A stretch of DNA of 64,000 nt. It comes from Membranipora membranacea. Taxonomy: Eukaryota; Bryozoa; Gymnolaemata; Cheilostomatida; Membraniporidae. The stretch spans positions 24,342,283 to 24,406,282 of the forward strand of contig OU612066.1 of NCBI GenBank assembly GCA_914767715.1. The letters are read 5' to 3'. This document shows, piece after piece, positions 712-64,000 of this stretch. Below the pieces are notes generated by a model. It was not told the origin of the DNA and made no database searches. It was given only the letters and a program-made list of their open reading frames with translations. The position numbers and the translations under genes were made by a program. Every line of letters starts with the position of its first letter. The first letter of the stretch is position 1.

Positions 712-2324
712 AGTGTTCAGGTCAGTGAGAGTAAACAGGTTCAGAGACCTGCTGTGATTGAGAGTTCCTCATCTTTCAGTAGTGGAGGTGGTGGTGGAGG
801 CGATCAGGTAAAAAAATACTAATCAGGCATATTCCTACAACATACCCACAATGCATCTGCAAGCTTGATTTTGATGGACACCTGCGCTTATTTTGTCAGT
901 TAAAAAGAGCATTAATGAGTTATGGGGAGGGGGGGGGGGTGGTGAGCTGTTCACCTTAAGAATTTCTCAGCTTTGCTGTTTCTTATATATATGATTCGCC
1001 GTCAGTATGCTTTGATATCGGCATCTTAGAAGCTCTGTGTAATCCTGACCTGCAGACACAATTTTTGCTCTTCACTCCTTAGTATTGATAGAAACATTAT
1101 TATGGTATCCAGACAGTCTGCTCATTATTTTGTTATCTCATAGCATGTGTTAAAAATCAGACTGTCCATTAAAATGTTAAACTCTGTCTGACAAATGTAG
1201 GCTTGTAAACAAACATCATACGATAAATGTAGGCTGGGAGGAGAAAACTCTCTTATAGTCCATAAGAAAAATGACGCAACGCGAGGTTTTCATGTCTAAT
1301 GAATTTTTGTTGTTTACTTGGACAGGATGTTGAAGTTATAACGGAGACATTACCAGACGGCTCAACGGTCACTAGGACTATCAGGCGAACTAAAAAAGTT
1401 GTGCAACAATCATGGAGCTCAGGTGGCGATGTAAGTATAATCTCAAATTAATCACCCTTTTGAGAGACCGTTTTCCTGCACTCAGCATTGGTCACCTTTC
1501 AAGCACTTCACCGAAACTCTCAATTTATATATATATATATATAATTATCAATCACCAATTAAACTATTTCTCAGAATAAGTTGATGACCATTTAGGTAGA
1601 GTTATAAAGTTTTGACTGTATTATTTCCACCTGTATTAATCTAACTATATAACTTGCCGTAGGATGAAGGAGGAGGAGGCAGTATGATGCGCTCTTATCG
1701 CCGAGGAGGTAGCAGTGGATATGATACTGCTGATGGATATAGTGATGGTGATGAACATAGCTATCAAACTCAGACTAGGTCATCCAGCTCATATCAGACA
1801 TACGAATCTCCTCAAACTCAGACTAGAACATCCAGCTCGTATGAGACATACGCATCTCCTCAATCTGTGAGTTTTTTATCCTTACGTAATAGAACATTGG
1901 TTTCCCCTCCAAATTGTTTCACAAACGCAATACAAGAAAAAAATAGTTCAGGATGATTGTTTGCTTGTCAAATTTGTGAACATTATATATAACTTTATCT
2001 GATTCAAGTTGAGTTGAGTTGGTGATCGTTTATAAATTGTCCAGTTTATCATGGCCACTGACAACTAGGACTTTTTTTTCCCCAACAACGCTTGTCCTAG
2101 TTGCATTTAAAAAAGAATCATCTCATTCAAAGCTCTGCACTTGTCCCTCTAAAGCGACAAACTTACCCAATCATCTAATGACTTCAAGCAGAATGTATTC
2201 ACAAGTACATGAATTCAAACTTCTATACAATCAAAGTCTTATTTGATTATATAATTTCCGTTTGAAGGAGAACCAGCAGAATTATTCCAGCTCCAGCTCC
2301 TCATCGTACCAGATGACGCCTGAA
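712..2324 (+). CDS. N-terminal low-complexity exons of the giant calponin gene
   Basis: Four exons, all phase 0: 712-807, 1326-1430, 1663-1866 and 2268-2324. The translation is disordered: a Ser/Gly-rich piece ending in a six-Gly run (FSSGGGGGGDQ), then VITETLPDGSTVTRTIRR, then a Ser/Tyr/Gln-rich piece holding two copies of a Q-T-Q-T-R-S/T-S-S-S-Y repeat, then NYSSSSSSYQ. The TETLPDG-type sequence resembles short basic/PDG stretches found in other cytoskeletal proteins, but no named domain is assigned. The acceptor of the first exon could lie at 711 or 720; both keep frame. An ATG upstream at 466 is in frame, but the sequence between looks like translated intron. Confidence 0.68.
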
Positions 2325-5300
2325 GTGAGATACTCTCTGTGACTGACTGTGACCCAGTGTCTCCTCAGCCGTACCCTGCTGTCTCTCTCCGGCTGTACCG
2401 CCCTAGCCCTCGACACCGCTCCCCTGCTAAAGTGTTCCTGTGGACCCACCCTACCCTCCTTCACTGGTGTTTGTGTGTTACCATTTCCCCTGCTTTTCTA
2501 ATAGGTCATTTTTCTGAAATTTAAAGTTGAATAATATCACAGAGTAAGGATATATCCTTACTCTGTGTTAGTACGCTATAACCCATGAATATTTTTTCTG
2601 TAAGATCAAGCTATTGCATACCCAAGACATTGATCGTCCTAAGTATGTGTCTTTTTCAATCATGTTCCTTGCTCCTAATGTGTTGTGTATCCCCGTACCT
2701 ATGATGTATCACCTCCCTTACATACTCAAGCTGTTAACTGCTGACCAGGATAGCTTGTTAGCGTTAATTGTTGAATGATTACTGTAATAGTTACGCAATG
2801 TCTTGCAATATATATTGTTTGTATAGTGATATAGTATATGCAGCGCAAGCCAAGGTGTAGCAATAATAATTCGGTGAGATGTACTTCGATAATGTATATT
2901 GTAACACAGACAACTCCTACATCAAATTCCACATACAACAAATCATATAAATTCAAATATTAATGTCGCTTTGTTGGATATTGTTTTTTATTATTATGAC
3001 GGTGACATAAAAGGATTGGCAAAAATGAGTCTGAATCAAGAAGTGTGTGTGTGGTCGGGACCCAATGTACTGCAATTGCTGTTGTACATACCTTCAACCT
3101 TGCACCTCTTGTCTATCTATTCATTCGCAGTTTTTCATCCCTCTCAGCCTGTGATTTACCCGTTTTCAAATTGTCAACATTTATGTTGAAAAATTTAGCA
3201 TAACCAGCACTGCGTCTCCCTTTACACTGCTTATGTATAATTGTGAGACCTTTAAACCCTGAGTACTCATAAGGAGTGTTTGCAACACCTCAATGAGGGT
3301 AAATTAGCCTGTGAACCCCAGAGTGATCGGGCCAACTGGTAGATGACATGACCACCCTGAGGAATTTCAGAAAAGTTAGAGTATGTCAAACATTTTTATT
3401 TTTTCCTTGTGTCACTTCATCATTCATGAACTGTTGTTCTTTTGCAGCAAATGGCCAAGTATGACTACGGAGCAGAGGCTGAGGTGAGGGAATGGATACA
3501 GTCAGTGACTGGAGATGAAATCCCAGAAGGCCCTGAAAATGTATACAAAGAACTCAAGAGTGGTGCCATTCTTGTCAAGTAAGTTCATCACATTCTTGTG
3601 AATAGAGGCCCTGTTTTGCATGACTCCCAGTATCACCTAGAGGGGGCCTCTGACATATTTGAATTGTTTATGAGAAACTAACTTAGGTATTTAATGATGG
3701 TGACCATGTGTTTTCTGGTTTGGGGTTTCTGCAATCCGGAAAATTACTTGCTGAAATTCGGTTACTGTAATGTGATTGATGTCAAGTGAATATTTTTCAT
3801 GGTTGAAAGAATTTAATGTTATAATATGTTGTTGTATAAATAGTGCAACTTCTGTAGGATTTTAATTTGCATTTTCATTTGTTTTGTTTATATTTTTACT
3901 TGTAGTTTATTGATTGCACTCTACGACGGGTCATCTGATCTCTCTGAAAAGGCTCAAGCCTTCAGAAAACACCTCAAAGCTAACAAATCTGACCTCGCCT
4001 TCAAGCAGGTAAATTTCAGCTTATATACACAAATACCTGTACGCTGTGCTGTGAATAGATCTAGTACTCTCTAACAGAATACTAAATTTAGTCCTGGAAA
4101 TTGGAATCTGAATGCCTCTAATGAGTTTTATATTTTAACAGGTACCAGTGATTGTGAAAGAATCAAGTTTTTGGTATCATCCTCGAGTTACCAGTCTTAT
4201 TTAGAATACTGCTCTTGGTTCGTTTGCAACTTTGAGTAAAAATCATCTGAAACTGGGCACAGGCTCAACCTAGAGCATCATTCATAATTAGGCTGAGAAC
4301 TGAAAATGATAGCAAAGCTGATCCCTTCTCAGTCACTTAGAAAAACTCTGTAACTCAACTACATTTAATTTCAATAATTTACCTTCAAAGTTCAAAGATA
4401 ACCATCAGAGCCGATTCACAATTCATTGCGTTTTTCTCCACGTAAATACCTCCCACTTTCGCGCACACTGTGAGGTGCTATGAATCAACTTACAACTTAA
4501 ACAGCTTAGTGTAATTTGCATGTTGCAGAGTTTTTATCATCGGTCAGTGAATGTAACTTACAACTATGATCATGCAGAATAAGAAATCTACTCCGTGATA
4601 ATCATTATGATACATGATCTATATTTATAAATGAAGCTCAAATCACTGATAGTTATCATAGCGATCGACGCAATGCACTTTGGCCATTCATCATCAATAG
4701 AAGTTTATTTTACACTCTCCATACACTGTAGTTTTCAATTTAGCTTATGCTGTGCGAATGTTCGAGCTTTTATATGTATGAAATATGCGGATGGTTGGAC
4801 ACAGCGATCTTATGGTACCTGTGCCTATTATTCAGTGCTCAACCTCTAAGTATAAAATTTTCAACAGGATCTATTTATTTTTTAATCTGCCTATTTGAAA
4901 AGATGTTCTAATCATTATTATTATCAGATCTATATATTGTTTTGTTATAAATAATTTATTGTTGTGTACAGGGAGATGATCTTAGAGGAGCAGAGGTATA
5001 GCGTCATGTAAAATTAAAAAAAAACCAAAAGGGCGTATGAAAGCAAATTGCTTAATTCCGTTATTTTCTTGAAAATTATGAAGGATTGGTACACATTTTG
5101 TACCATAATCCTCCATATCGGGAAATTGAGTTCTTTTTCACACGCCCTTTTATACTTGTCACCCTCCCTACCCTGAAATTACCCTTTCAATAACGTAATG
5201 AATATAAAACCCGCAAAAGTGTCTACCTTACCCTTTTTGCCTACCCAGACATAAGTAAATCCCACCTATGACGTTCTGCAGATCAGATGAGTACCATAAT

Positions 5301-8300
5301 GCAGGTATATTTGAAGCGAGTTGTCTCAAGAACCTACCTGCAGATGCCATGGTGTGCCCCTAACCTTGTTAACCGATGTACACAAACTTGCAAATACACA
5401 TAATGATAAATTCCCTATAATGAAGAGTTGTCCCCCTAATGTCAGGGGAAGGAAAACTCTAAATCTGCATAGCTTCCTCAGCAGTGTTTAGTACCTACTT
5501 TTGCAAGTCTCTATATTATAAGATATGCAATTAATCTTATTTCAGATGGAGAATATTGAGAAATATCTGAAGGGAGCTGCTCTCTATGGTGTTGGTATCA
5601 CAGGAATCTTCCCCACTGTTGACTTGTATGAGAACAGAAATCTAGGAGCAGTCATCTCTAGCCTTCAATCACTCGGCAGTGAGGTCAGTTCATTACCACT
5701 TACCTGCAAATCACCTCCTCTCAATCTTCATATCCACACTATTTGTGATTCATATGATATTGGATTATCAACTGTGACTAGTCGATGGTCGTAGTTGACT
5801 GTTGACTGTGGCCATGAAAGAGGTCTTTTGTTTTCAATGTGTTGAAATCACAAATTCTTGGAACTTGATACTTGCTGGTGACCATTTTCAACAACCTTGT
5901 AACAGCTTATCATAATCATCGTGACATATGCGTACGTTTGGATAGGCTGCGATGGATAATGAAATGCCACTACCAGCAAACTGCAAATAGTAAAGAAAAT
6001 AGTGTAACAGATGCACCATGTGGTTTTTCTTTGTATTTCTAGGCCCAGAGAAGTGGATTTAATGGTGCTACATGTGGACCCAAACCAACCACTAAGAATA
6101 AGAGACAGTTCAGTATGGAGACACTGAGAGGTGGAGAGGGAGTTATCGGACTTCAATCAGGTACGGCACTCTCATCAGTTTTTATTAGTTACTTTGTCCT
6201 TATACAGGGTATCATACTACAGACAAGGGTGAAAAACAAGTGATATTGCCAATTCTAGTCTCAGCCAATAAAGACATGTTAGGTTTAACACGAAGTCATA
6301 TTAAGGTTATCAAATGCTAGCAATAATCTAGATGCTGATGCCCGAGGGGACCACTTATATTATCGGTTACAAAGCTACAAACTATGCATGCTCACTCTTT
6401 TGCTCCGCTTTAATTTGTTCATTGCATGCTGAAAACCTTTGAAAACTGGAAATCTTAAAAAAATTAGAATAGGGAAACTCATCGATAGATATAGTATTTT
6501 ATGTCGTAAGAGAAACCCGCAATTTTTAAAGCAATCATCAAAATTGTTGTCTTATCACTAAGGAGTTGTGTGTACAATGAAAAAGGGAGATGATAGCCTT
6601 GAGAAATAATAATTTTGCCCACCGCAAAAACTTCCATGCCTGCCTGCAGCCACCTCTTTGTACAGCCATGTACTGGCCAACCTCTCTGCCTTGATAATAA
6701 TAAAACCATGTTTTACCCATGTGTTAATCCATGCACCACCCAAGTATCGTGATTTTTAGGTACCAACAAATTCGCCTCCCAGAAGGGTATGTCCATGGGA
6801 GCGGTGAGACATGTCGCCGATATCAGAGCTGATGATATGAACCAGGAAGGTCAGGGTATCGTCAATCTGCAAGCAGGTACCAACAAGTTTGCCTCGCAGA
6901 AGGGCATGTCCATGGGAGCTGTTCGCCACGTGGCTGATATTCGTGCTGATGACTTGGACCAAGAGGGTTGTGGAATAATTGGTCTTCAGTCAGGTGAGGC
7001 TCTCGCAGCTGATTGGTTGATTAATGAAACAGAAAACTTTTTAGCTATCCTTAGTTGTAGACTACCCAAGCCACCAACATACCAAATCCCTATGCTCATG
7101 AAAGCTATTACCATGCATGCCCCCTTTTCGTTTGACCATCGATGCTAGTAAATAGATCTTGGAAAGGTGAATTCAGGTCAATTTGAGCTGGTTGGAATCA
7201 GGAGTCAATTTTCATCAATATTATGCCATAATACTACCCTCCAATTATCAACAATTGAGACCCTGTTATCAAATATTAGGCACAAACAAATTCGCCTCCC
7301 AGAAGGGCATGTCCATGGGAGCGGTGAGACATGTCGCCGATATCAGAGCTGATGACATGAACCAGGAGGGACAGGGTATCATCAATCTGCAAGCAGGTAC
7401 CAACAAGTTTGCCTCACAGAAGGGAATGTCTATGGGAGCTGTGCGCCACGTAGCTGATATTCGTGCTGATGATTTGGACCAAGAGGGTTGTGGAATAATT
7501 GGCCTGCAGTCAGGTACTAAAAAAATCCAATAGGAGAAAACTTAGTTCTGTAATCACTTATTTTTAACTTGTTCTCAAGACACCCGAAAGTTTTCAGTTA
7601 AATTCCTGATGGTTTCCCCATATTGACAAACTTTACCCTCCATGTGTAACGTGATATATGTTTCTTCTCCTCTCATTTGATGTGAACCTCTAAACCTTTG
7701 ATTAAACCCAAACTGCATAGTTCATCTTCCTTTGCAAATCTACTAAATAACAACTGACTCAATAAAAAAAGGGGAGCACACTCTTGACCCATTACTGTAA
7801 TGGTCTGATTCCAGGTACAAACAAATTTGCTAGTCAAAAGGGTATGTCCATGGGTAAGGTAAGGCATGTAGCCGATATCCGCGCTGACGATATGGTACCT
7901 GAGGGTCACGACCATGTGACACTTCAGTCAGGTACCAACCAATTTGCCTCACAAAAAGGAATGTCCATGGGCAAAGTACGGCATATCGCTGATATCCGTG
8001 CAGATGATTTGTCTAGGGAAGGAATGGACCATGTACAGTTGCAATCAGGTTTGTCAGCATGCCCAGATAATGGAATGCTGCTGCTTGAGAATGGGATTCA
8101 GCGGGGCTGTGATTGGTCCACAGAACTTGACAGCATGGGCATGGTTAGTTGGATATTTTCAATCTGTTAAAGACAAAAATTTACTAAACTGATTTTAGTA
8201 GGGTGGTTTGTTGGTGGCTCAGTGGTCATAAAAAACGTCCATGGTCATCAGCATCTATATTTTGCTAAGCATTTGGTGGTATACAGTACTTTCCAGCTAA

Positions 8301-11300
8301 GGCTGTGTGCATTTTGCATAGAATAGTCTTTACTTTTTGCGTCAAGCTCTTTCATGCAACTCTGTCTAGAGAACTAATAATACTCATCTATCAATCTTTG
8401 CTTTCATGTAGCATGATCTCATCTATTGTTTACTATGGATAGTGTTAGAGGAGTGTGTTTTGATTATGCTCTGATTGGCATGCCCGCTATATAGGTGACC
8501 ACCCATCTAAGAAGGTTATGTCAATGGGAGGCATCAGGCACGCCGCTGACTCTCAGATGGAACCGTATGTGGATATAAGAGGACAAGGAATCATTACTGC
8601 TCAGTCTGGTGAGTCACTCATCATCGAAAACATTTATGATATAATGCATTGTTTTGTATATTATGTTATATATGTTTATGCTCGTTACCAAAAACATGTT
8701 ATATAATATATTGTGTCATATATTATGTATGTTTAGCTCATCACTGATCAATTTTGGATAATAAACCTGGATGCAATCACTTGGTGATGCTAATTTTGTT
8801 TTTTTGCTGCAAATTTACATATCACATATTATTTCAGAGCAAGGTTTGAGTGCAGGTCACTTGTCACCATGTAGCTATGAAATTGAATTGATGCCTTAGA
8901 TAGCATTAGAGAGGGCATTTTGGGGAATATCTGATATCCTCACTGCCCTCAACATCTTTGTAACTTGCACTATTCACTATTGTTTATGTAGGCGACTATC
9001 ATTTGGCATCACAGCAAGGAATGGCTATGGGTGGTGTCAGACACGCTGCTGATATGAAGACTAGTGAGATGGATATGAGAGGACATGGGGTTCTCAGCCG
9101 TCAAACAGGTATAGTCTCACTAGAAACACAGCATCAGTTATCTTTACTGAGCCAAAAAACCATCATAGGCCTACAACTAAATGTACATTATGTATTTTGT
9201 GTGCAAAAAAATGTTACCAAACAGACCCACCACATGCATGTTATATAGGATTGTAAATGGGCTACTTATTTAGCATATAATCAGTTTCGCTGTGGCATTA
9301 CATGAATTATGTTTTGATCATTCTTGGTTGGAAATAGGGGTATCTGAAGATAATTTTGTACATCGCCATAATATAAACTGATATTTCTGCCATAAGTGTA
9401 TCATGATACCTGATCATCTTTATCCAATGGCTGAACGTTAAAATGCAAAAGTATAATTACTCAGCTCATTACTTTTCTAATATATTTAAGGTCCAGGAGA
9501 GAATGCCCAACAAGGTGGATTAGCTATTGGAACAATCAGACCTACTCGTGTCGCAAACCAAGAGTCTCCTTCTCAGGCCAGTCAAGCTTATCTACACCCA
9601 CAAACTGGTAAGTGTATTACATAAGGTGTGAGTGTCTTGAGATAAATGTAGACAGCCCTAAATGATAATGTTATAATGATAGCTGAGCCTTGTTTTCCGT
9701 TTCAATTTATTACTCTCTTTTTATCAACTGGTTCTTTCGTGTTGCAGGCACTGGCGATGGAGCAAACCAGAAAGGAATGGTGATGGGCAATCTGCGACCA
9801 CTGTCCAGTCAGAACGAACAGATTTCGAGAGAATCACAGTCAGTGCTCCACCCTCAGACTGGATACAATTTCGGAGTTAACCAATCAGGTATGGTGATGG
9901 GATCTCACAGACCTATGGTGGACCCTCACTACGATGTCTCGCTCACCCAGGCATCCCAGGGGCATCTGCATCAGCAAACTGGAACTGGTACAGGAGCAAC
10001 ACAGAAAGGTATGACTATGGGTCATGCGCGTCCATTGGTTGACTCTCATGTCGAAGCTATTTCTCAGCAGTCACAGGGAGTTCTCAACCCTCAAACAGGT
10101 TTAGTGGCTGCAGATGGAGCTTCACAAAGGGGAATGGTAATCGGAGGAATGCGGCCTGTTGTTGATAGGAAAGCAGAGCCAGCCGTGCAGGCGTCTGATG
10201 GAATATTAAGACAGCAGACTGGAACTGGTGATGGGGCCACACAAAAAGGCATGCACTTTGGAGGAATGAGACCTCTAGTTGATGGGCAAGCAGAAGCTGC
10301 ATCTCAAGCATCAGAAGGAGTATTACGACCACAAACAGGTGGACCATCAGCAGAAGGTGCATCACAGAAGGGAATGCAATTTGGAGGAGCAAGAGCACTG
10401 GTTGATGGGAACGCCCAACCACTCCTGCAAGCATCACAAGGAGTACTCCGACCCCAAACTGGCGGACCTTCTGCTGAGGGTGCCTCACAGAAAGGAATGG
10501 TCATAGGAGGTGTGAGACCTGTTTTTGATGTTCATGCCCAGCAAGCATCTCAAGCCTCGGAAGGTGTCCTTAGGCAACAGACAGGCGGCCCTTGTCTTGA
10601 TGGAGCCTCACAGAAGGGGATGGTGATGGGTGGACTTAGATCCGCTTTTGATAGTAATGCTCAGCCGGCCTCTCAAGCTTCTGAAGGTGTATTGAGACCA
10701 CAAACCGGTGGACCATCTGCTGAAGGCGCATCACAGAAAGGAATGGTGATTGGAGGAATGAGATCTGTTCTTGATATTCATGCTCAGCCTCCCTCACAGG
10801 CTTCAGAGGGTTTCCTCCGACAGCAAACTGGTGGGCCTTCTATTGATGGTGCTTCCCAAAAAGGAATGCGTATCGGAGGATCGAGACTGCTTGTCGATAG
10901 TAATGCTGAGCCTGCTGTTCAAGCATCTCAAGGTGTACTACGACAACAAACTGGTGGACCATCAATTGAGGGTGCTTCACAAAGTGGAATGGTCATGGGA
11001 GGGGCCAGGCAAACTGTAGATGGTAAAGCACAACCCGCAACACAAGCCTCTGAAGGTGTTCTCAGACCACAAACTGGAGGCCCTTCTGCTGAGGGTGCAT
11101 CACAGAAAGGAATGGTGATCGGTGGTGTGAGACCTGTTTTTGATATCCATGCCGAGCCTGCCTCTCAAGCTTCGCAAGGTGTGCTTAGGCAACAAACAGG
11201 AGGCCCCTGTCTTGATGGAGCCTCACAGAAGGGAATGGTGATTGGTGGAGTGAGACCTGTGTTTGATATCCACGCCCAACCGGCTTCACAAGCTTCAGAA

Positions 11301-17300: not shown

Positions 17301-20300
17301 GGTTAGCATCCCAGAAGGGTATGGTAATCGGTGGTGTTAGACATGCCGGAACAATTCAAGGTGATGAAATCAATCAGAAGTCCCATGGAATTTTGAATAA
17401 GCAGATCGGAACTGGAGAGTTTGCTACACAGAAGGGAATGAGTATCGGCAGCGTGCGTCATGCTGGCGATTTACAAACCACCGAAATGGATCAAAAATCA
17501 CAAGGAGTCCTACATCCCCAGACAGGATCAACTCAATATGCCTCACAAAAGGGTATGAGTTTGGGAAGTGTACGTCACGCAAGTGATATGAAAACAACTG
17601 TGATGTCACAGGAATCTCAAGGTGTTCTTCATTCTCAAACCGCTGAAACAGGAATGGGTTCACAGAAGGGCATGAGTATTGGAGGTGTAAGGCATGCCGG
17701 TTACATCAAAGGACCTGACATGTCGCAAGAAGCCCAGGGCATTCTTCATCCACAGACCGGGTCAACACAGCATGCTTCACAAAAGGGTATGAGTATTGGA
17801 AGCGTAAGACATGCTGGGGATATGAAAGTAGCAGAGATGTCACAACAATCCCAGGGTGTTTTGAACTCACAAACTGGCTCTGCTAATCGCGCTACACAGA
17901 AGGGAATGAGCATGGGTAGTGTTCGCCATGCTGGTGATGTTAAAACAACCGAAATGACACAAGAGGCTCAAGGTATCCTTCACCCTCAAACAGGCTCAAC
18001 ACAGCATGCCTCCCAAAAGGGTATGAGTTTGGGAAGTGTACGTCATGCTGGAGACTTGAAAACAACTGACATGTCCCAAGAATCACAAGGTATTCTTCAT
18101 GCTCAAACTGGATCCACAAAATATGCGTCTCAGAAGGGAATGAGCATAGGAAGTGTGCGTCATGCAGGAGACATCAGTGCCGGAGAAATGAAGCAGGAGT
18201 CACAAGGAGTACTTCACGCTCAGACTTCGGAACAGCATGCTTCACAAAAAGGAATGAGTATCGGCGCTGTACGACACGCAGGTGAATACAAATCAGCAGA
18301 AATGTCCCAGGCCGCCCAAGGTGTACTACACAAGCAAACTGGTACTAAAGACTTTGCTTCACAGAAAGGAATGAGTATTGGAGGTTTGAGACATGGTGGC
18401 GACTTGAAAACAACAGAAATGTCACAGAAATCTCAAGGTCATCTGCATGCTCAGACTGGTACAAAGGACTATGCAACACAGAAAGGAATGAGTCTTGGTT
18501 CCTTGAGACACGCTGGAGATGTCAAATCTGCCGAGATGACCCAAAAGGCCCAAGGAGTGCTACATGCCCAGACAGGAACAGGTCAGTACTCTACACAAAA
18601 GGGTATGAACATAGGTGGCAACCGACACGCTGCGGATATAACAAGTAAAATATCTGACATGACTCAACAGTCACAAGGACATCTCACCGCCCAGACTGGT
18701 GATGGAGCACACGCTACACAGAAAGGTATGGTCATTGGAGGTCAGCGTCATGCTGGTGACACTAAGATCAGCGATATGAACCAAAGCTCTCAAGGATTGC
18801 TTAGCGCTCAGACAGGTCAAAATAAATACGCCACACAGAAAGGAATGAGCCTTGGTGGCAAATGGCATGGCGCTGACTTGCAAATGGATAAAGCATCTCA
18901 GAAAGCTCAAGGAGTTCTGCATGCACAAACCGGAACAAACCTGTATGCCACACAAAAGGGTATGAGTTTGGGAGGAACCAGACACGGAGCCGACACGAAA
19001 TGTGCGCAGATGACGCAGAAGTCACAGGATGTGCTTCATCCTCAGACCGGCACTAATCTCTATGCCTCACAGAAGGGAATGAGGTTGGGAGGTACAAGAT
19101 TGGGGGCTGACATCAAAGGAGGAGATCAGGATCAAAAGTCACAGGGTCTACTCACTTCTCAGTCTGGTATGTTGGCATAATCAAGATATCAATGCTGGTT
19201 TATACTTACTGACTCACGATCGATCAGAAATAGATTTGTTGAGATTCTTTTTTCAATTGCAGAACAAAGCTTCTTCAAAAAACATTCATTGGCAAATTAT
19301 TCATGTTACTTAGAAAGTAATCACTAGTCCATTGTATTCATGTAAACATGCTGGTTGAGTTATTTGAGCGAAGATCGTCATAGTTTGTGGTTATAATGAT
19401 TGAACTCTTGTTCTATCACAGGTAATGGTAAATACGCCACACAGAAGGGTATGAGTATCGGTGGTAAGAGATATGGTGCTGACTATTCTATGGGTGCAGG
19501 TGTACTGGCCTCTCAGAAGTATATACCACTACAATCAGGTAATTACCCTGGCCCTTTCAGCTGTAAACACAACCAGTCACTATGTTCCATACAAACTGAA
19601 GAATTATGGCGCAATATAATATTTCTGCCAACAATCAGTATTTGAAAATGCTTAGATATAAAATAATACTAATAGCCTTCTTTGTGGATTCATCAACCAT
19701 GGCAAATATCTTTGCACGTTTATTGATCTTTTCTTATGTCTATTATCTTGTCAGGTACAAACAAGTTTGCTACACAGAAAGGAATGAGTATTGGCGGTGT
19801 GCGACATGTATCTGACATCAAGGTGACAGAGCTGTGTGATGAATCACACAAGATATTGACACTGCAGACAGGTACCAACAGGTTCTCCTCTCAACAGGGA
19901 ATGAATATTGGAGCTCAAAGGCACGTCGGAGACATCAAAGTCACAGAGCTGTGTCAGGATGGTCAGGGTGTACTAACATCACAAACAGGTTAGAAAATAA
20001 ATCATCCCAATATTCATGAATGTGCATGAAGACATGTCATAAGTGATCTAGTTTTGACAGTTCATCACAGAAGTTGCAGTTTTACTACTGGTGGATACTT
20101 ATATGCCTTGTGATAGCTCATCTCTCAACCAGATTTGATACCGTTTTTCAACATAATATATTGTCATACATAGCAGCTTCCCAAGTTCTGCGATCAGATG
20201 TCTGATAACTCTGCATACACTGTTTCCTTTTACAGCTCATGACAATGATTCGGTGGTGGAAATGGCTTCAGCGTAGTTTTATTTTCGAATGTTTTTTCTT

Positions 20301-23300
20301 TTTTGACAATATTTACATCTGCAACAAAAAACCACATATGTATAACTCTTACCTAGCTCTTACAGCTCTATAACAATTCTGTGATAGTTCTATAATAATT
20401 TTATACTTGAGCGGTTCTATAAAATTGGATAGCTTGAAAAACTTTCAAATGGAAAAAACGATGTTGAATAAATATTATGAAGTAACTGTCTTTCTAGTAA
20501 ATTAATCTAACTATTTTCAGATTGGTCTTATTGAAGCCTCCTCGCCCACATTTGTAAACAAATAAAATTCTGATTTATTGTTTTCGTTTAGAGTTATTCA
20601 TTTTGAAAATAATTTATCAATGTGAAATTGCTGCTGTTGTCAGGAACAGCAATCGTCCTAACATCAAATCTCATTTCCACCACTGCGGCTAGATGAAGGT
20701 AAATCTTTTTGGTTTCCCCATTTCTGAAACCACTATAGATGGATAGAAGTGTGAATTTACCCCCATAGAGTCGTTATAATATATCTATTGCTTACCCCTC
20801 TAGCATAGATTTGTTTCCATAAAGAAAGCTTCTCTTTCTCATATTTAATTTTATCGTGTTGCGAGTCGTGTCATATATGATAACTTGTCCTTGCTCAAAC
20901 ATGTGCCTAATTTTACAGGTAAAAACGAGTTTGCCACACAACAGGGTATGAACATCGGATCACAGAGACATATCACTGATATTAAGCCTGAATCTATCTC
21001 AGCAGCGTCTGAGAGTATCATCAGTAAGCAGGCCGGTACGTATATCATTACGATAAATTCTTGGTTTCGTTTCAGTTCGGAAGGTTTGATTACTATCAGT
21101 GAGTGACACGTGACGATATTTTTGTCCTGTCGAGTATTGATTCTTTTTGTGACTTCAAGAGATTGCAGTTTTTGATGATAATTGTGTGATATTTATCTAT
21201 GACAGGCAATTCATTGACGCAAACACTTTATAATGCATTTTATTGTATTATATTCCGCATAATCTTTTACTCCTCAGGTGATATAAATCACTTATATAAT
21301 CATATATTATTATTTTTATAATTATATTATGTTTTCATTTCTCAGGTGATATAAATCTTGCCTCACAGAAGGGAATGAGTATCGGCTCAGTGAGACATGT
21401 CGGCGATATCTATGCTGATAAACCCACGATAGATTCTCCTGAATCCCTTCCTAAACAGTCTGGTATGTATTCAGATCGCTATTAATTACCTAGCACATTA
21501 ATTCACTCTCTATGATAGATCAGGTGACCAGTGTGGGTGTGTAGTCAGCTCTCAAATCGGTGTTATTATGCTACAATCGATTATGATCGCAATTAATACA
21601 TTCTCAACATTTTGAAGTTGCCTCCTCTCTTTGTCTTCAAGTTCAACACCCTAGCTGACCTATGCCAACAAAATCAGAGCCTTTCATTACATAGTCCAGG
21701 TGCTCTTCTGGACAACGATCATCATAACTTGTGGCAGTTCTCCTCACAAAAATTAAATAATTCAGAGGTGAATGACGCACACATTTCTTGAAACTAAATT
21801 GATGGTTGTTGGGATCTAGTAAGTTTATAACAGATCTGGCTTTATTTGTAGGCACTAACATTTACGCCTCCCAGAAGGGAATGGCTCTGGGCTCAAACAG
21901 ACAGATTACTGATAAAACCATAGACAAAGCATCTGATGACTCTCAGGGCATGCTCACCATGCAGACAGGTGAGCTGATAATAAAATAATATAATAACATA
22001 GAATAATAGTAAAAAATAAAAAGTGTATAATAATGATAATAATAATAATTATAATAATAATAGCAAAGCTTTTCAGTGTTGCCCCACATAGTCTGATGTC
22101 TTAGATCAGCCTGTTCAGGAATGATGTGGTATGTTTTGTCAGATATATCCATAGAACTTTTCAACCATCTGATCGCTCGGACAACTCTCCATAATTCTTT
22201 TACTATTCAGATATACTTTTGTTATTTATCATAACCGTACAGTCAATTTTGCACAATATTTGTGTCAGCAGTTTTCATGACCCCGGCGCAGGCTTCTACT
22301 ACATATACCATCAAAGTAATGCAAGATAATGTCAGAGTAACGCGGAGCTTGGGCTGTTAAAGTTCAAAACATTTATATGATTTGTAAATATATCAATGTG
22401 TCTCTTGTTTTAAGGTACTGGTGAGCACGCCTCTCAGAAGGGGATGACTTTCGGTGGGGTTCGTCATGTGGGAGATATCCGATCTGATGACATGAACGTG
22501 GACTCCAAGAGTATCCTTTACTCCCAATCTGGTAAGTTTAACCTTATTTGGTTAATTTTTGGTGTATGCTTTAAACCCTGCCAGCAATGGAATGCGAATT
22601 ATATCAATATGCAGCTTTTTTGCTGTTGCTTATTATTAGATGAGATAGTAAATAGTAATATTTTGATAGCCTCTATGTTAGAACAGGGAGAATGGTTAGA
22701 AGTAAGTCTATTGTTCAAATATATGTATAATTCAAGAAGCGATGAACAACCATATGTCTGTAAAAATTTCTCTGAGTTATGAGCTATGCTGACATGGTAG
22801 ATGCAGATATCATTAGTGTTGACTAATGATGAAGAAAAGACACCATAATGGATCGTGATGGTGGGAGTTGCCTCATCAGTGAACAAAAGAGCTTCGAGAA
22901 AATTTCAAACACAATCTGAGTTCTTGGATTTGGAACTAATAATATATATAACAGAATGCTTTTGCTTCTTCGTTATGTAGGCTCTAATCAGTATGCAGCT
23001 CAGAGAGGAATGAAGATGGGAACATCTCGTGACATCACACAGCACGAGGATGAAGCCGTCGCTACAACTGACGTTCCTCAACAGTCTGGTCAGTGTGATT
23101 AACTGAACAATATTCTGTTGCTCATTTTAGTTCCAATTGACTCAGACATATTTGAGCGTTTTTCCACATCCTCCTGGCACCATTACCCAGAATGCAACAC
23201 AAGAATGTGAATTAGATTCTTCTTCGTTTCCCGGTGTGTGAATCATCACTCATTTATAAAATTGGGCAAAATCACGCAACTGTGTAGATGTGCCAATATA

Positions 23301-26300
23301 GATTTAGCCATAATGGAAGAATAAGAGGGGGTAACTCCTGAATTCTCCCTGTGCTAATCGAGTGTTAAGCCATGTCGTACCAGAATCCTTGTCTAAGCTG
23401 GATATATCCCATGTTATAGTGACTATTATTTACTTATACAGGCAGTAACAAGTACGCATCACAGAAGGGTATGAGAATCGGAGCATCACGTCACGCTGCC
23501 GATATAAGAGCTGACAAACCAAGCAGAGAATCACAGACTATTCTTCATCTGCAATCAGGTGAGAAAATGCTCAAAATGGCTAACTCTGTCTACATTAAAA
23601 ATTTTGTCATATATTTCATTGATAAAACTGATGACACCCTGCAAGATGGAACAAATATTCAAGGAATTAAATTTAAACATTTTCTCGAGTAGATGGTTTT
23701 CGTCTGTGAATTTGATTCTTTCTTGTAGTCTTGTCATTGAGAATTTCAAAATTATTAATAGATGGAATTAAATTATGGTCATTTTTCATGGTGAAGTAAC
23801 AAAGTTTAAATCCAGCGAGGCTTTCCTATCCAGGAATCCTCAGAATATTCTTAAAGTGATGATTGAGTCACTATTTTCATTTTTGCTCTGCACCGTTTTA
23901 ATTATCATTTTATGATTATCCCCAAGTAAACATCACATCAAACCTTGTGTTCTAATTTAAGGTGTGAGTGCCAAACAATTGAGGAAGAGAGCCAGCTCCG
24001 AGGGCAGATCTGGTAGAAGTGGTAACAGATCTAGTCTAATGACCAGACTTATTACACAGCAGCAGCAAACTGGTATGTGATCTCATGTTATAATGATACA
24101 TGCTAAATACACATGGATAGAAAGATTTTTAGCCCTAGATAAGAACAGCTACCTACTTGGTTATATTATGACCCCGATAAAGCTTTCCATGACTGCCATA
24201 GAGTCAAGCTATGGTGCTGTTGAAAAAGTGGCTTGTGCATCATCTCAAAACAATTGTAGCGAGGGTACTAGTATAAACGCTGTATGCAAACCAGCACGGA
24301 AAGATTCTGCTGTAACTTCTCCCTCTCAATTTTTCCAATTTACTGCATTTTTATCCAATATGTATGAGAATTTACCTTGAAATGAAGCAATGGCCGCCAT
24401 TAAACCCCTATTGTCTACAGGTGCTAGTGCTCAGTACCCACAACATGGTGGATACGCCCTTAGAGGATCACGTATAGGAGGAGGTGTCTCAGGACAATCA
24501 GAGGGAGGTGTGTACTTATCTCGCAGTTACTGGGCTGATGTCGATAGTGAAACAGGTGCGGGTGTACAGAGACAGGCCCGAGCACAATCTGCTGATATAC
24601 ATGGAGCTCAGACTACAACACAGCAGGCTATGGGTGACATGACTCAACAATTTGGTGTTATCTCTATGTCGTCAGGTATGTTCAGAGTGTGGTATCAATC
24701 CATGAGGAGTAAAGTCTTGGCAGGAGGAAAATTCCGTCTTTTTGCAAAGGCTTGGTTGGTTTGGTTAAAGGCTAGCTAAGTTTTAATCACTCTCATTAGT
24801 TGATATCAACTCCAACCTCAGCTGACCAGAATTAAGCTTTAGCTAAAATTAAGCCAACAGAAACAAGTAAAATCGAACTCTAGCTGATTCTCTCTCAAGA
24901 GTTATTGTTTGATCTTTCCAATAATAACCATCATGTGATTTGCTATTTGCCCAAAATAACATACAGAAAGCTTGTGGTTGTCCAATGAGTGGTAACCAAT
25001 ACATGAAAATATTGGAAACTTTTTCTTTTTGCAACCAACACTTCTATAACTTTGAATAGGATTGACAAAAAGCTTGTTGAATGTTAAGCAAATCCATATT
25101 TTTTCTTTTTCTGTGTCCATCATCCTCACAACTTAAACCATAATACGATCAAATCTACTTGTTGTGTAGGACCCAGTCAAATGCAAGAAGAGCGGTACGT
25201 CAGACAGTTTGTAACTGAAGGTCCAGTAGTGAGAAGACGTCTCGTCACACATGCTTATCAGCAGCTTCCTGGCACATCAGTCCGATACGTACAACCAATG
25301 AGAGGTGACACATCAGAGTCACTACAACAAAATCAACAACAGGTCGTACATCAGTACACCGTACAACAACAGCACGGCGGCACACAGGGGGTAATACCTG
25401 CTGGTGCACAGGGCTACCAGACCTCTGGCAGTACCCAAAGCTACCAGACTTCTGGTCCAGTATCGCAGACCTTGGACAGTCAGGGATATCAGACTTCAGG
25501 TCAGAATGTACAGGTGAGACATGTTCAACTCCCAGCAGAAGGCAGCCACTCACAGCATGGCTCTGTCACCACTGTGACGAAAGAAATGAGGAGCGGCGCC
25601 AGCAGTGGGATGGGATCAGGTGAAGGTCACACTACACGAACCGTCACCAGGACTGTCCAAGAAATTCCTGCATCTACACTGGAAGGAGGAGTCGTGGTCA
25701 TTGAAGAGGGTGGATCCAGCGGTGGTGGAGATGGACACACAACCGTGAAACAGACCAGAACCGTAACTCAAAGCTTCCAAGAAATCCCCGTCACACAGCA
25801 AAGCTTTCAGATAACCCAGCAATCTATGCCTGTCATCACCCAACAGCAGAGAAATGTGCAAATAACACAGCAGTCTATGCCCATAACCACTCTACAACAG
25901 GGCTATCACACTACTCAACAGCAGTCGATGCCAATGACAACTCAACAACAGGGATACCGCATCACCCAACAGCAGTCAATGCCAATAACAACTCAACAAC
26001 AGGGAGGATATCACATCACTCAACAGCAGTCAATGCCGATGACAACTCAACATCAGCAACAACAGAGCTATCACATTACTCAACAACAGTCAACACCAAT
26101 GATGTCACAACAACAGGGAGGTGTTACTGTAGTAAGACAAGTAGTAAGGGGTGGATCCAGAGAAGGATCTGCCGGAGGGACTGTACGTAGAGGCTTTCAG
26201 CAAGTTGAGATGATGGAAGGAATGACCACTGAAGAGTTGAGCAAGCAGATGGAGCGAATGATCGGTGATCCTCAAGCAGGTTGGTTTATGAGAATTAATT

Positions 26301-29300
26301 CCTGTGGTTTTATATGCAAAATCTAGGCCTTCTCTATTGCAATATGTTTCCGGGCCCGTTCATCAGGCAATATGCAGCAGGATTTCTTCGCCTAGTAAAT
26401 GACCATCAATTCCTGTGACCAATCATAGTCGGGTCTTGTGTTAGGCCTTCACTATAGCAACATGACTCCAACCTGTTCCTCATGCAAAACACAGAAATTC
26501 TTTACCTGTCAAATCTACCCCTGCCAGCTGGGAGTTGTCAGTTCATTTTCATGGTGGAGATAACTTCTTAGTAGATTCTCAGCTTTTTGGGCAGTATTTA
26601 CATATCTGCAACTCCTTTCAAACAGCCAATGGATTTTTACACTAAAATCTTGCTTATAATTTTAGTAACTGAAGGAGCAACTGTAGTTCGCAAGACAATG
26701 ACTAGCTCCAGCGGTACAGGACAACCACCTCAGCACTCTGAGACAATGACTGTTACTCAAACTGGGGCTGATGGCAAAACAATCACTTATACAAGCAGTG
26801 ATGATGGTAAATATATGATAAAATCCAAATACATCCCCACATTTTGAACATGGCACGCTTTTGGCCAAACAACCAACTATAAACATATATAATATATATA
26901 CATGTAGGATATTAATGGTTCCAACAATGTGTTTGCCAAATTAGCCCTACCTTGTCCCCTCAACCTCCCCCCTCCCCCCTTCCATTCAACCTGTATAAAC
27001 CGTATTGATGTACCTAAATCCATGACTTACCATTGTATGAATCCTGCTCACTTGTATTCCTGGATCAACCGACATGGACAAGGCTTGAGATACCCCGTAT
27101 CACCCTGTATTGATATTAGAAAAAAACCATTGTGCACAGAAACACAGAAAATTATATGACCAGAAAAAAAATAATGACAACTACCTCACATTCTGATGCT
27201 CAGATGATTTCCATCCATCACCACATGATTCCTTCTGGTGGTATAGAATAGGCCACAGCACCATTATTATGGCTTCCACAATGTGATCCAAGATTATTGC
27301 TAACATGAAAGTTGTTGTCATATCGATAACCTAGATCAAGTATGACCCAATTTGCCTGGTGCCTCCGGGCTCACCAAGCAGGGACAACCTGCTGGTAAAT
27401 TGGATCATAGTTGATTTCCCCATTTCCCATGTCATTGCCCTCGACCAAGAAACTGTGCAGAAAATGTAAACCAGATCTTACCCTTGAAATCCTTACCTGT
27501 GTTCACCATGCCCTTTTATATTGTCTTATTGCAGGCTCCCGATGACATCAACCAAAACCACCAATCTGTCTCTGCTTTATTGCATCCGTGTGCTTGTGTC
27601 TCATTTTAATATATTATTTTCTCAAAATTGATTAATGTTTGGGATATGCTTAGATTGTGTGTATGTTGACTGTTTCGTTTGAGGCCTGAAGTAGTTAGAT
27701 GTTTTTGCCTGCTATGAAAGATTGAGGGTTTTTATTTGGCTTACCAGTTTTATTAAACTAAGTATATGAACAAATTCCAACAGCTTATTTGGATAATAAC
27801 TATGGTGCTTGCTTTCAATGGCTTCATTATCTCATTCAAGTTTTTTGCAGTTGTTTCTTTTAAAATTACAACTAAGTGATTATGGCTGGACATTTTTTGG
27901 ATGTTGCCCTTAATATACGTTATCGGTTGTATTGCAGGTACTAACAAATTCGCCTCCCAGAAGGGCATGTCTATGGGAGCAGTGAGACATGTCGCCGACA
28001 TCAGAGCTGATGAGATGGACCAGGATGGTCAGGGACTTGTCTGCCTTCAATCCGGTAATTATGATTGACAGGCTAAGTGAGACAGGGCAGAAGTGGATTC
28101 GGATCTGTTGAATATCAAAATAAAAGCAAGGATTTTTCAGGAGTTTTCCTCTCTCAAAACAAGTGCACACAACTCCTTATGATATCAAACCCAACACAAT
28201 TTTAGACAACAAAGTTTATCGTGCGAGAACGAGCCTGTACGCTATGTGAGAAAAGTCTTCTAAGATATTTGAAAGGGATCATAAAGCAAAGGGGGGGGGG
28301 GGGGCTTTTGAGAGTTATCCTTATCAAATAGTTAAGATACACGGGTACCATTGTATCGAAGATTGAAAGTTGATTGTATTCCTAGTTCCCACGTTGTTTT
28401 GTTGATACAATCGTGGGGCGGGTCATTGTTAAAACTAACCATAAAGCATCTGATAATCTGCATGTTGTAAATGTGGAGATCTTATATTATTACCACATAA
28501 TAGATTTGCGTGGGAAATTAAGACTAAACAGTTGCATGCATCGAACAATCAACGCAGTCACTTTTTTTAAAAAGCAAAAAAGGAGGATAAGACATACGTC
28601 ACGGCTGTATGTTATTAATTCAGTGCTATAACTAATCCCTATGCTTAGGTTGTGGTTTTGTGGTTTCGCGGTAGAGCGTAATGGATATCTATCATATCCT
28701 GTCTGCTTACTGACATTTTTTACTCCTCCTAATGTCATGAATGCAGACTTTTTATGGTGTCAAACTGCAACCAAGGAGAGATTAACTTTATATACTTGGT
28801 TTTATTACAGAAACTAAATAACCCTATTATCTTTTTATATAAAGTAGTAAGTAGGGTGTACCCAAAGCCCCAGCCGTTTATGCCTATGTCTACGTGTCCC
28901 TATCCCATTCCACCACATGGCCTTATCATCAGATGTCATACTGTAGCCCACTCATATAGCGTGATGTGTTGAATGAAACCTGACAGCTGAATAAAGAGCA
29001 TAAGAGGTCAAAACCTATGAATCAGTTTCCTCGTGATAAGACTATCTGTCTTTCAGTCATCCCTATAATAGAATCTCAAATGCTACCCCATCCCTACATA
29101 TCTGTAAACATTGCCGACTTAACTTAGCAACCGCTTGAGAAACAAAACTGCATGACGCTTTACAAGGCACTTTTTGCATTGAAATGTACTTATTTACATT
29201 GTGCATAAATTTAAATTGTGATGCTCTGGCACATTGTTTTAACAACAACCCTGCACAGCTATTTTTAATTATTTAAATGTTCATTTCTTTAGGTACAAAC

Positions 29301-29516
29301 AAATTTGCCTCCCAGAAGGGAATGTCTATGGGAGCTGTGCGTCATGTCGCCGATATCAAGGCTGATGAGATGGACCAAGATGGTCAAGGTCATATTGGTC
29401 TCCAGGCTGGCACAAACGCGTTTGCCTCACAAAAGGGAATGAGTTTCGGCAAAGGTAGAGGAGTTAGTGATATCAGAATATCCAAGGTGACTGATGAAGA
29501 TGAAGAGATGTTCTAA
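712..29516 (+). CDS. Giant calponin-family protein: one CH domain plus about 94 CLIK-type repeats (5' end outside window)
   Basis: Exons by splice signal and frame: 712-807, 1326-1430, 1663-1866, 2268-2324, 3448-3578, 3906-4008, 5546-5683, 6043-6160, 6760-6993, 7280-7513, 7815-8048, 8495-8608, 8992-9108, 9491-9607, 9748-13542, 14364-19166, 19422-19538, 19755-19988, 20919-21035, 21346-21462, 21852-21968, 22415-22531, 22981-23088, 23442-23558, 23962-24072, 24421-24675, 25170-26279, 26666-26806, 27938-28054, 29293-29516 (TAA). The joined frame is open for about 4,533 residues. Order: disordered N-terminus (1-154), transgelin/calponin-type CH domain (about 155-278), linker, long repeat array (about 318-3880), Gln-rich region, three terminal repeats, acidic end DEDEEMF. 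Calponin-family repeats bind the sides of F-actin; nematode UNC-87, made only of such repeats, has seven. The role here (actin bundling or stabilising, contractile or stress-fibre-like structures) is inference. The first exon begins at an acceptor, so the true start is probably upstream. Single gene versus two overlapping transcription units is not proven. Confidence 0.88.
2538..2567. repeat. Perfect 30-bp palindrome
   Basis: Bases 2538-2552 (cacagagtaaggata) are followed directly by their exact complement. It lies in the intron before the CH-domain exons. A related imperfect copy is at 46524-46565. Confidence 0.85.
3448..6160 (+). CDS. Calponin-homology (CH) domain exons of the giant calponin gene
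   Basis: Exons 3448-3578, 3906-4008, 5546-5683 and 6043-6160. The first three encode a single CH domain of the calponin/transgelin type: AEVREWIQSVTG, ELKSGAILVNLLIALY, the hallmark LAFKQMENIEKYLKGA, and YGVGITGIFPTVDLYE followed by AVISSLQSLGSE. The fourth encodes the linker seen after the CH domain in calponins, ending VIGLQSG, which runs straight into the first repeat. A single CH domain of this class usually does not bind actin strongly by itself; the repeats do. The ATG at 3451, next to the acceptor, could start a shorter isoform lacking the disordered N-terminus. Start of the first repeat intron is phase 1, a phase then kept by all following exons. Confidence 0.92.
4149..4336. mobile_element. 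MITE, family 2, shorter decayed copy
   Basis: The left end (gtgattgtgaaagaatcaag, then tttttggtatcat) and following bases match the complemented right end of the element at 52902-53254. The right side (ggctgagaactgaaaatgat, then agcaaagctgat) is the decayed inverted counterpart. It lies in a CH-domain intron of the calponin gene. Confidence 0.62.
5026..5152. repeat. Hairpin-forming element (MITE-like)
   Basis: The outer arms are caaaagggcgtatgaaag near 5026 and the complement ending cacacgcccttttat near 5152, with an inner stem around ggattggtac/gtaccataatcc at about 5083-5112. It starts some 30 bases downstream of a possible 24-nt micro-exon in the CH-domain intron. Confidence 0.65.
6760..9607 (+). 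CDS. Repeat exons upstream of the giant exons (9 calponin repeats)
   Basis: Six exons: 6760-6993, 7280-7513 and 7815-8048 carry two repeats each (234 bp); 8495-8608 (114 bp), 8992-9108 and 9491-9607 (117 bp) carry one each. Each repeat is 39 codons with the core FASQKGMSMGAVRHVADI, and ends LQ-S/A-G or QTG at the splice junction. All introns are phase 1 after the G of the Gly codon. Exons 6760-6993 and 7280-7513 are nearly identical in DNA, so they are a recent exon duplication. The repeat at 9491 has lost the usual RH pair (RPTRVANQ) and already resembles the first type in the next giant exon. Confidence 0.9.
9748..13542 (+). CDS. Giant exon A: 32 tandem calponin repeats in one 3,795-bp exon
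   Basis: The acceptor is gttgcag at 9741-9747 and the donor gtaagt at 13543; the exon is 1,265 codons, phase 1 at both ends. By hand count it has 32 repeats, each ending in QT before the next Gly. Repeats 1-5 and 18-32 are mainly 39-residue units; repeats 6-17 are 41-residue units (123 bp) that begin GGPSAEGASQKGM or close variants and have R-P/L-x-x-D in place of the common RHAxD. Repeats 21, 24, 26 and 32 carry a W-H-x-x-D variant. Repeat 22 (about 12280-12370) is short and has lost the ASQKGM core; repeat 23 (GNGDNVSIGG) has it altered. The sequence is open throughout, with no stop or frameshift, which argues for selection on the protein. Confidence 0.92.
13543..14363 (+). other. Intron separating the two giant repeat exons
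   Basis: This 821-bp intron (gtaagt to ttgaag) is the only interruption in a run of 73 repeats. It has no repeat-like coding sequence, only AT-rich DNA, so the two arrays probably expanded separately from pre-existing neighbouring exons. Confidence 0.75.
14364..19166 (+). CDS. Giant exon B: 41 tandem calponin repeats in one 4,803-bp exon
   Basis: The exon follows an acceptor at 14361-14363 and ends before gtatgt at 19167; it is 1,601 codons, phase 1 at both ends. Hand count gives 41 repeats with the consensus GSTQHASQKGMSLGSVRH then AGDLKTTEM then Q-x-S-Q-G-V-L-H-P-Q-T. Repeats 11-17 are nearly identical and alternate between two types. Repeats 26 and 29 begin AETG, repeat 34 is one residue short, and the last five drift toward GTNLYATQKGM, like the single-repeat exons downstream. 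The core ASQKGMSxGxxRH is the calponin-family (CLIK) signature, known to contact F-actin. There are no stops or shifts. Confidence 0.93.
19422..23558 (+). CDS. Repeat exons downstream of giant exon B (9 calponin repeats)
   Basis: Eight exons, all phase 1: 19422-19538, 19755-19988 (two repeats), 20919-21035, 21346-21462, 21852-21968, 22415-22531, 22981-23088 (108 bp) and 23442-23558. Each except 22981 is 117 or 234 bp. Repeat cores include KYATQKGMSIGGKR, KFATQKGMSIGGVRH, NLASQKGMSIGSVRH, IYASQKGMALGSNRQ and KYASQKGMRIGASRH. These units are far more divergent from one another than those in the giant exons, as expected for older copies separated by introns. Introns run from about 220 to 930 bp. 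Confidence 0.88.
23962..26806 (+). CDS. Linker and Gln-rich exons of the giant calponin gene
   Basis: Exons 23962-24072, 24421-24675, 25170-26279 and 26666-26806, phase 1 throughout. The first is a 37-codon basic, Ser-rich unit ending QQQQTG that may be a decayed repeat. The second, starting GASAQYPQHGG, has no repeat core. The 1,110-bp third exon is disordered: three copies of YQTSG, two of an R-T-V-T-x-x-x-Q-E-I-P element, then about six copies of ITQQQSMPMTTQQQ. It ends in a possible helix (MTTEELSKQMERMIGD). Its donor (gttggt at 26280) is weak. The fourth exon contains TVTQTGADGKTITYTSSDDG, which echoes the PDG motif of the N-terminal exons. Confidence 0.72.
27938..29516 (+). CDS. C-terminal repeat exons and stop of the giant calponin gene (3 repeats)
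   Basis: Exon 27938-28054 carries one repeat; exon 29293-29516 carries two and ends in TAA after SKVTDEDEEMF. Phase 1 matches the donor at 26807, so the two join in frame after the Gln-rich region. The repeats (TNKFASQKGMSMGAVRHV, then ADIRADEM or ADIKADEM) are almost the same as those just after the CH domain and unlike the repeats at 19422-23558. An alternative end is possible: the acceptor at 27531-27534 would add only SR before a TGA at 27543. It is also possible that these exons belong to short isoforms in which most of the array is skipped. Confidence 0.85.
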
Positions 29517-62805: not shown

Positions 62806-63177
62806 CTATTTATAGAAACGGTGAATTCGGGCTTCCAAAAATATTTTGCACGGATGATTCTCATATTCTCTAACCCTTGCAATAATATATCGAAAGCAAA
62901 GAATATCAAGATGTATTTTTAGCTCTTCGAGCTTTAGCAAAGATAGTCTCTCTTCAAACTCTTCCTCATATGGAATCATAACTCTGGTGCAGAGCATTTG
63001 AAATCTCTCCAGTTTATCCTTATCATTTTGGGAGGTGTGTGGGAACCAGCATGGGGCTGCATATGATAAAACCGATAAAATTCTAGCTTTGTAAAATAAT
63101 ATCAGTGAATGAGATCTCACACCAGCTTTTCTTAGCTTTATAAGTACGTGAGTCTTCCATCCCTGTGGCTGCTTCAC
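62806..63177 (-). mobile_element. Fragment of a non-LTR retrotransposon reverse transcriptase (C-terminal end)
   Basis: The minus strand is open for 123 codons. It contains LRKAGVRSHSLILFYKARIL, SVLSYAAPCWFPH and DKLERFQMLCTRVMIPYEEE, then a C-terminal stretch ending HRFYK. The pattern of a helix, then L-S-Y-A-A-P-x-W, then L-E-R-x-Q, is the typical region after the catalytic palm in LINE reverse transcriptases (CR1/Jockey-like). The catalytic part is absent upstream, so this is a truncated relic. Confidence 0.72.
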
Positions 63178-64000
63178 GGCGGTTTAGATCCTTTGCCATT
63201 CACTGGGAGTTGTGCCTAATTGGCCATAGCTGCATGGCTTTGTGCGGTACCGGGCTATTGTGTTTTGTGTCCAATTATCTGCACTGATGGATTAATTTGG
63301 CGAGCAAATTCCTCAAGCCTTTAGTTGCCCTGTGAGCCTTGGTGTTTGAGGTTTTCCTCACAGGCTCAGTAAACTTGAGTTGTATAAACTTGAACTATAT
63401 TTATCTATTTTTCTGGGCAAAGGTAATATTTGGGGATTTACTAAAGGAGCAAAAAGGTATGTTATAAATTAAATTCTGTTTTCTGTAGGTTAAAATAATT
63501 CGACTCCAAGTTCACTTGACTTAATATCTCTTTTATTTCTCGGTACATTCAAAATTAATTAATAGGGTTTGGATTTGTGTTTATTTGATCTTTGAGTATA
63601 TTGTTCCTTATTATTATTTTTATGCACCACATTAATTGCACCATTTTCTATTCCAGTTTCACGGAACCTTCGGGGATTAAAATAAAACCTGTGATCCTGT
63701 GATACCATCAGTAATCTCTAAAATCTAATGTAAAATAATCAAGAAGCCTTGTGGTCCAGAACAATCCCCCCTCTAATAATCCATGTATAAGACAGACAAC
63801 TTTTGTTAATGTTTAAATCATCGTCTTAGCTGATTCGGTAATCGAATGCAACTTTATAAGTGCTACGATTCCCAAAGTGTGACAATTATTATTGATTATT
63901 GCCATGGGAAGGAGACTTTTGTTTCAATTGAAACATTTTTCTAAAGATTCTATAGTTTTACACAATTTCTAGCAGATAAAGCGATCGAAAAGACGTATGG
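63178..64000. other. Right edge of window, no gene seen
   Basis: The sequence next to 63177 may still be retrotransposon-derived but is not openly coding. The remainder is AT-rich with no supportable exon. Confidence 0.4.

Follow-up and report, generated by a model that had tools for sequence, protein, structure and literature searches.

The 64,000-nt window of Membranipora membranacea DNA analyzed here (C2:24342283-24406282, from a 339-Mb genome in 18 contigs) carries on its plus strand a gene whose predicted product, judged from the sequence, is a giant calponin-family protein: a known kind of protein in an extreme variant, for which the gene sequence strongly supports the claim to size. 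The gene model comprises 29 exons (712-29516; 13,491 bases spliced) whose frame runs uninterrupted for 4,496 residues up to the stop codon (471 kDa) and encodes one CH domain and 94 CLIK (calponin-like) repeats. These values agree with a preliminary description of this DNA, which had claimed one CH domain, about 94 repeats and about 4,500 residues. The reading favored here, which we hold to be fairly probable, is that one gene would encode a side-binding stabilizer of F-actin, gripping many subunits in series in a layout resembling that of nebulin.

All modeled exon borders carry AG acceptors and GT donors, and the phases agree between exons. Exons 4, 5, 6 and 7 end in phases 0, 2, 0 and 0, exon 8 switches to phase 1, and every repeat exon then starts and ends in phase 1 except the last, which contains the stop codon. 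Two giant exons, 15 and 16, lie in plus-strand open frames of 1,292 codons (9687-13565) and 1,633 codons (14279-19180), and together provide 2,866 codons without a stop; in 30 sequences sampled from a first-order Markov model of the window, open frames reached 206 codons at most. The intron between exons 14 and 15 measures 140 bases, and the frame continues across it from exon 14. Phase, splice signals and short introns form the basis on which the CH exons are predicted to be spliced to the giant exons. At its 5' end, the gene reaches beyond the window: position 712, taken in the preliminary description as the start of the gene, is an exon border, and a further exon lies ∼240-330 bases 5' of window position 1, bounded by AG/GT, in phase 0 and in phase with the model. 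This upstream exon encodes a Thr-rich DGTVT segment resembling the one in exon 2.

Repeats were counted with a hidden Markov model (HMM) built from this protein's own modules, at a threshold of at least 10 bits. The 94 modules divide into 9 (exons 9-14), 32 (exon 15), 41 (exon 16), 9 (exons 17-24) and 3 (exons 28-29), which exactly matches an earlier hand count; two weak matches in exons 25 and 26 (0.7 and -4.9 bits) were left out. Across all 30 Markov samples together, the same HMM gave a single match. Because this HMM was seeded from the protein itself and is therefore circular, Pfam PF00402 serves as the independent count. With expectation values (E) up to 10, PF00402 marks 30 stretches in exon 15 (32 modules) and 40 in exon 16 (41 modules); in the remaining repeat exons, with E up to 1, it marks 6, 9 and 3 stretches for 9, 9 and 3 modules. 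The total of 88 stretches against 94 modules exceeds the 80 or more PF00402 matches that the preliminary description had proposed as a check, at lax thresholds only. With E limited to 0.01, just 5 and 22 stretches remain in the two giant exons, so that single modules match weakly and the strength comes from the array (207 bits for exon 15, 460 bits for exon 16). The CH domain is recognized in the spliced model by PF00307 (E 4.3e-13, 49.8 bits, cut-off 26), and a PDB sequence search returned ten CH-domain relatives, the best being transgelin-2, calponin-2 and calponin-1; the exon 16 sequence found no relatives in the PDB. A match of the exon 16 frame (14279-19177) to PF15143 (DUF4575; 49.3 bits, cut-off 27) was taken as a cross-match to the CLIK repeats and set aside. 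In the giant-exon scans, PF15143 gave 0 stretches at E up to 0.01 and 6 at E up to 10, and the family may overlap CLIK-like repeats.

The modules share nearly fixed key residues and a regular spacing. Three residues are invariant among the modules having the column (Q8, 92/92; G10, 93/93; Q38, 93/93), and two more are nearly so (G14 and R17, found in fractions of 0.99 and 0.94 of the 94 modules). With the last three modules excluded, module length is 39 residues in 70 of 91, 41 in 14 and another value in 7. Exon 15 mixes 16 modules of 39 residues, 13 of 41 and 3 of other lengths, and exon 16 holds 38 of 41 at exactly 39. At the DNA level, neighboring modules differ at silent sites to saturation (proportion of silent differences, pS, 0.75), the proportion of replacement differences (pN) being 0.26. 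Inside exon 15 the values are pS 0.73 and pN 0.28, inside exon 16 they are 0.77 and 0.21, and over the sets compared they range from 0.73 to 0.77 and from 0.21 to 0.36. pS exceeds pN in 93/93 neighboring pairs and in 4,363 of all 4,371 pairs, eight pairs not following. Since silent sites are saturated, only the exon 15 neighbors allowed the ratio of replacement to silent substitution rates (dN/dS) to be calculated; it is 0.135 there. Silent saturation implies that most modules parted long ago, and the held replacement sites imply that the modules have been kept. The repeats are under purifying selection, the giant exons have the appearance of coding sequence that is maintained, and the array is old, not the product of fresh slippage. 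Later copying is visible as well: DNA identity between some nearby exon 16 modules reaches 0.95. Exons 9 (6760-6993) and 10 (7280-7513) share 219 of 234 bases and differ in one residue; 14 of the 15 base differences fall at third codon positions, and the 100-base flanks have ungapped identities of 0.26 and 0.37. This pair possibly represents alternative exons or conversion.

An N-terminal single CH domain of the calponin type (PF00307) followed by CLIK repeats (PF00402), as given by the spliced model, places the predicted protein in the calponin/transgelin family. The same order is found in the calponin-like proteins of lophotrochozoans (mussel CaP-40, tapeworm, molluscs); the window gene differs from these in its 94 repeats, its two giant single exons and its Gln-rich insert. 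Published CH proteins carry 5 CLIK repeats in mussel and 7 in tapeworm, and those of molluscs reach up to 23 (PMC10285543, citing Ono 2021), so the repeat number here lies roughly fourfold beyond the highest value cited there. The preliminary description had set calponins at about three repeats and UNC-87 at seven, with no family member near this size; its point on size agrees with the results here, and its survey misses the published 5-, 7- and 23-repeat proteins. Because both ends of each giant exon are in phase 1, splicing could omit either with the frame kept, and omission of both would leave 21 repeats, which raises the prospect that the published 23-repeat proteins may share this layout. 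UNC-87 of Caenorhabditis elegans likewise consists of a run of CLIK repeats, and by analogy F-actin side binding is expected here. Unlike UNC-87, which has seven repeats and no CH domain (PMC2963174), the window gene carries its CH exons 5-7 in frame before the repeats and is not of the CLIK-only type, although a CH-less isoform is possible. With nebulin, the protein shares a mass of hundreds of kDa and tens to hundreds of actin-binding modules of ∼35-39 residues in series; nebulin, however, is built of another module type. Membership of the nebulin family was rejected, no PF00880 match being found in the scanned exons; a genome search for nebulin repeats was also empty, a weak negative because the control genomes gave no match either.

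When the 339-Mb genome was searched for the exon 16 protein, the best candidates, which alone are scored, included no second giant CLIK array. The nearest paralog locus is a calponin with 11 repeats on C1 (7586455-7589365), distributed over four open frames as 2 + 4 and then 2 + 3 repeats. The initial six repeats are followed by a stop and the remaining ones by another C-terminal end; these ends differ, which suggests either alternative 3' exons or a second gene in tandem. C9 carries two transgelin-like loci and C10 a third, with one repeat found in each. A query of CH plus CLIK sequence found 643 homologous proteins, and the 120 listed carry 3 to 7 repeats by our HMM (candidates up to ∼617 residues), the named matches among them being bivalve, gastropod, cephalopod, annelid, nemertean and flatworm calponins. 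By eye, the N-termini of mollusc homologs show an insert similar to that of exon 6. In a 31-row tree that combines the window gene and the C1 paralog with 29 homologs, hand-picked from those of the listed 120 that are named to species, the window gene groups with the C1 paralog (100/99), within a mollusc group and without resolution there. Tree and homologs together point most likely to a lophotrochozoan animal.

The predicted protein would thus run from a Ser-rich and probably disordered N-terminus through the CH domain and the 94 CLIK repeats, with a Gln-rich insert near the C-terminus. By comparison with its relatives, each repeat would bind the side of F-actin, and the chain would lie along filaments, holding many subunits through many weak grips in series. 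Filaments would in this way be stabilized against ADF/cofilin and depolymerization, and actomyosin would be damped. More tentatively, the protein could belong to the muscle thin filament and do there the job that nebulin does in vertebrates. Along one long-pitch strand, actin subunits are spaced ∼5.5 nm apart; with one repeat per subunit, 94 repeats would span ∼0.52 µm. The seven-repeat UNC-87 attaches to the sides of actin filaments, shields these from ADF/cofilin and has been proposed as a stand-in for nebulin in C. elegans, which has none (PMC2963174). Nebulin itself comprises ∼200 modules, each ∼35 residues long, and some of its fragments bind with a single module to each actin (PMC2963174). 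The 40-kDa calponin of mussel inhibits the actomyosin ATPase (PMC12040844). By analogy with UNC-87 and nebulin, a clamp or ruler along the filament, as the preliminary description had suggested, is plausible. A stronger version, in which the protein is a convergent nebulin-like template, one molecule along ∼0.5 µm of actin setting or guarding length and splicing of the giant exons tuning it between muscles, appears rather unlikely.

Several observations weigh against the favored reading of one gene for a serially gripping stabilizer. The register of the array is imperfect, with a few degenerate modules such as one of 30 residues in exon 15 and one of 38 residues in exon 12. Nebulin has seven-module super-repeats, and no super-repeat stands out here, module identity falling off over lags of 1-15 with bumps of at most ∼0.015; a tandem repeat finder reported units of 246 and 351 bases, the lag means at 2 and 3 differing by at most ∼0.015. 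An AlphaFold model of three CLIK modules, based on an alignment of 21 rows from 23 module triplets (two holding or adjoining a degenerate module were omitted), has a mean predicted local distance difference test score (pLDDT) of 49.8 and is uninformative on the bound form; so low a score would agree with a chain becoming ordered only once bound to actin, without demonstrating one. No initiator ATG could be placed in the 20 kb upstream, inspected by eye and with a few motifs. Orthologs are expected, since silent saturation makes the array old, and two protein searches with long queries (candidates of ∼898-2,857 and 1,592-5,066 residues; 7,991 and 7,989 scored) found no long homolog at E up to 0.001; because a long-protein positive control is lacking, this empty result is not read as absence of orthologs. 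The excerpts of PMC12040844 and PMC9315827 give molluscan muscle calponins as 34-45 kDa and mention no giant form. The role of nebulin as a ruler is itself disputed, as it may fall short of the pointed ends, and mice without nebulin still build uniform, shorter filaments (PMC2963174).

A different use of the same array would be the cross-linking of separate filaments into bundles by multivalent CLIK repeats, inside or outside muscle. Calponins are able to aggregate actin (PMC12040844), and UNC-87 is named an actin-bundling protein in the title of Kranewitter 2001, found in the reference list of PMC2963174. The near-constant 39-residue spacing (38/41 modules in exon 16), however, suits serial binding better, without proving it, and bundling is rather unlikely. 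The locus might instead yield two products, the CH exons being joined mostly to the short repeat exons and the giant exons being transcribed from an internal promoter as a CH-less giant of the UNC-87 type. The phase 1-1 exons would allow this, the C1 paralog locus has its two different C-terminal ends, and two pearl oyster calponins bear names truncated at 'calponin splicing is'. Against it, only 140 bases of intron precede exon 15, into which the frame continues from exon 14, and we consider this division of the locus unlikely. Neutral repeat growth, with the giant exons as recent slippage products of little function, could draw on the tandem repeats within single exons and on the near-identical exon 16 modules, but recent slippage is rejected on pS and pN between modules (silent saturation with replacement sites held, in every neighboring pair) and sits badly with the 2,866 stop-free codons, making this explanation highly improbable.

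If the full product of the favored single gene exists, it would be a case, beside nebulin, of a short actin-binding motif multiplied into a giant that could cover a long stretch of filament. The term 'giant calponin' occurred in none of the open-licence papers listed for it, a result that, like the protein searches, leaves room for an ortholog already described. Calponin is described as the least studied thin-filament protein of catch muscle, and the function of vertebrate calponin as still unclear (PMC12040844); a giant CLIK protein would offer a concrete candidate for study.

Table 1. Exons of the giant calponin-family gene model, in window coordinates.
Feature	Position	Strand	Basis or remark
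Exon 1 of the model (not the gene's first exon): Ser/Gly-rich N-terminal region	712..807	+	AG/GT, phase 0
Exon 2: N-terminal region with TETLPDGSTVTRT-type segment	1326..1430	+	AG/GT, phase 0; upstream exon has similar segment
Exon 3: low-complexity region rich in Ser/Thr/Tyr	1663..1866	+	AG/GT, phase 0
Exon 4: Ser-rich	2268..2324	+	AG/GT, phase 0
Exon 5: CH domain, first part	3448..3578	+	PF00307 on spliced protein; calponin/transgelin CH structures
Exon 6: CH domain, middle part	3906..4008	+	Phases agree (2 to 0)
Exon 7: CH domain, last part	5546..5683	+	PF00307 on spliced protein
Exon 8: linker from CH domain to first CLIK repeat; phase 0 to 1	6043..6160	+	
Exons 9-14: 9 CLIK repeats (2+2+2+1+1+1)	6760..9607	+	Own repeat HMM
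Exon 15, giant: 1,265 codons, 32 CLIK repeats	9748..13542	+	Own HMM, Pfam, open frame
Exon 16, giant: 1,601 codons, 41 CLIK repeats	14364..19166	+	Own HMM, Pfam, open frame
Exons 17-24: 9 CLIK repeats	19422..23558	+	Own HMM; 9 PF00402 stretches
Exons 25-27: non-repeat region rich in Gln/Ser/Thr	24421..26806	+	
Exon 28: 1 CLIK repeat	27938..28054	+	Own HMM, Pfam
Exon 29: 2 CLIK repeats, acidic C-terminus, stop codon	29293..29516	+	Own HMM, Pfam

Within the Gln-rich region, exon 26 contains a 51-base tandem repeat (25867-26056, 3.7 copies) encoding a QQSMPITTQQ-type stretch. Outside the gene, scans of the window for tRNAs and Rfam families gave 0 and 0 matches. Three long open frames of 331, 523 and 517 codons on the plus strand (39294-44242), perhaps one neighboring gene, matched no Pfam family at E up to 0.1, and a nearby frame at 45005-45310 gave a sub-threshold match to the c-SKI Smad4-binding domain (E 0.061). 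On the minus strand, a 125-codon frame at 62809-63183, with no Pfam match, looks like the terminal part of a reverse transcriptase from a non-LTR retrotransposon.

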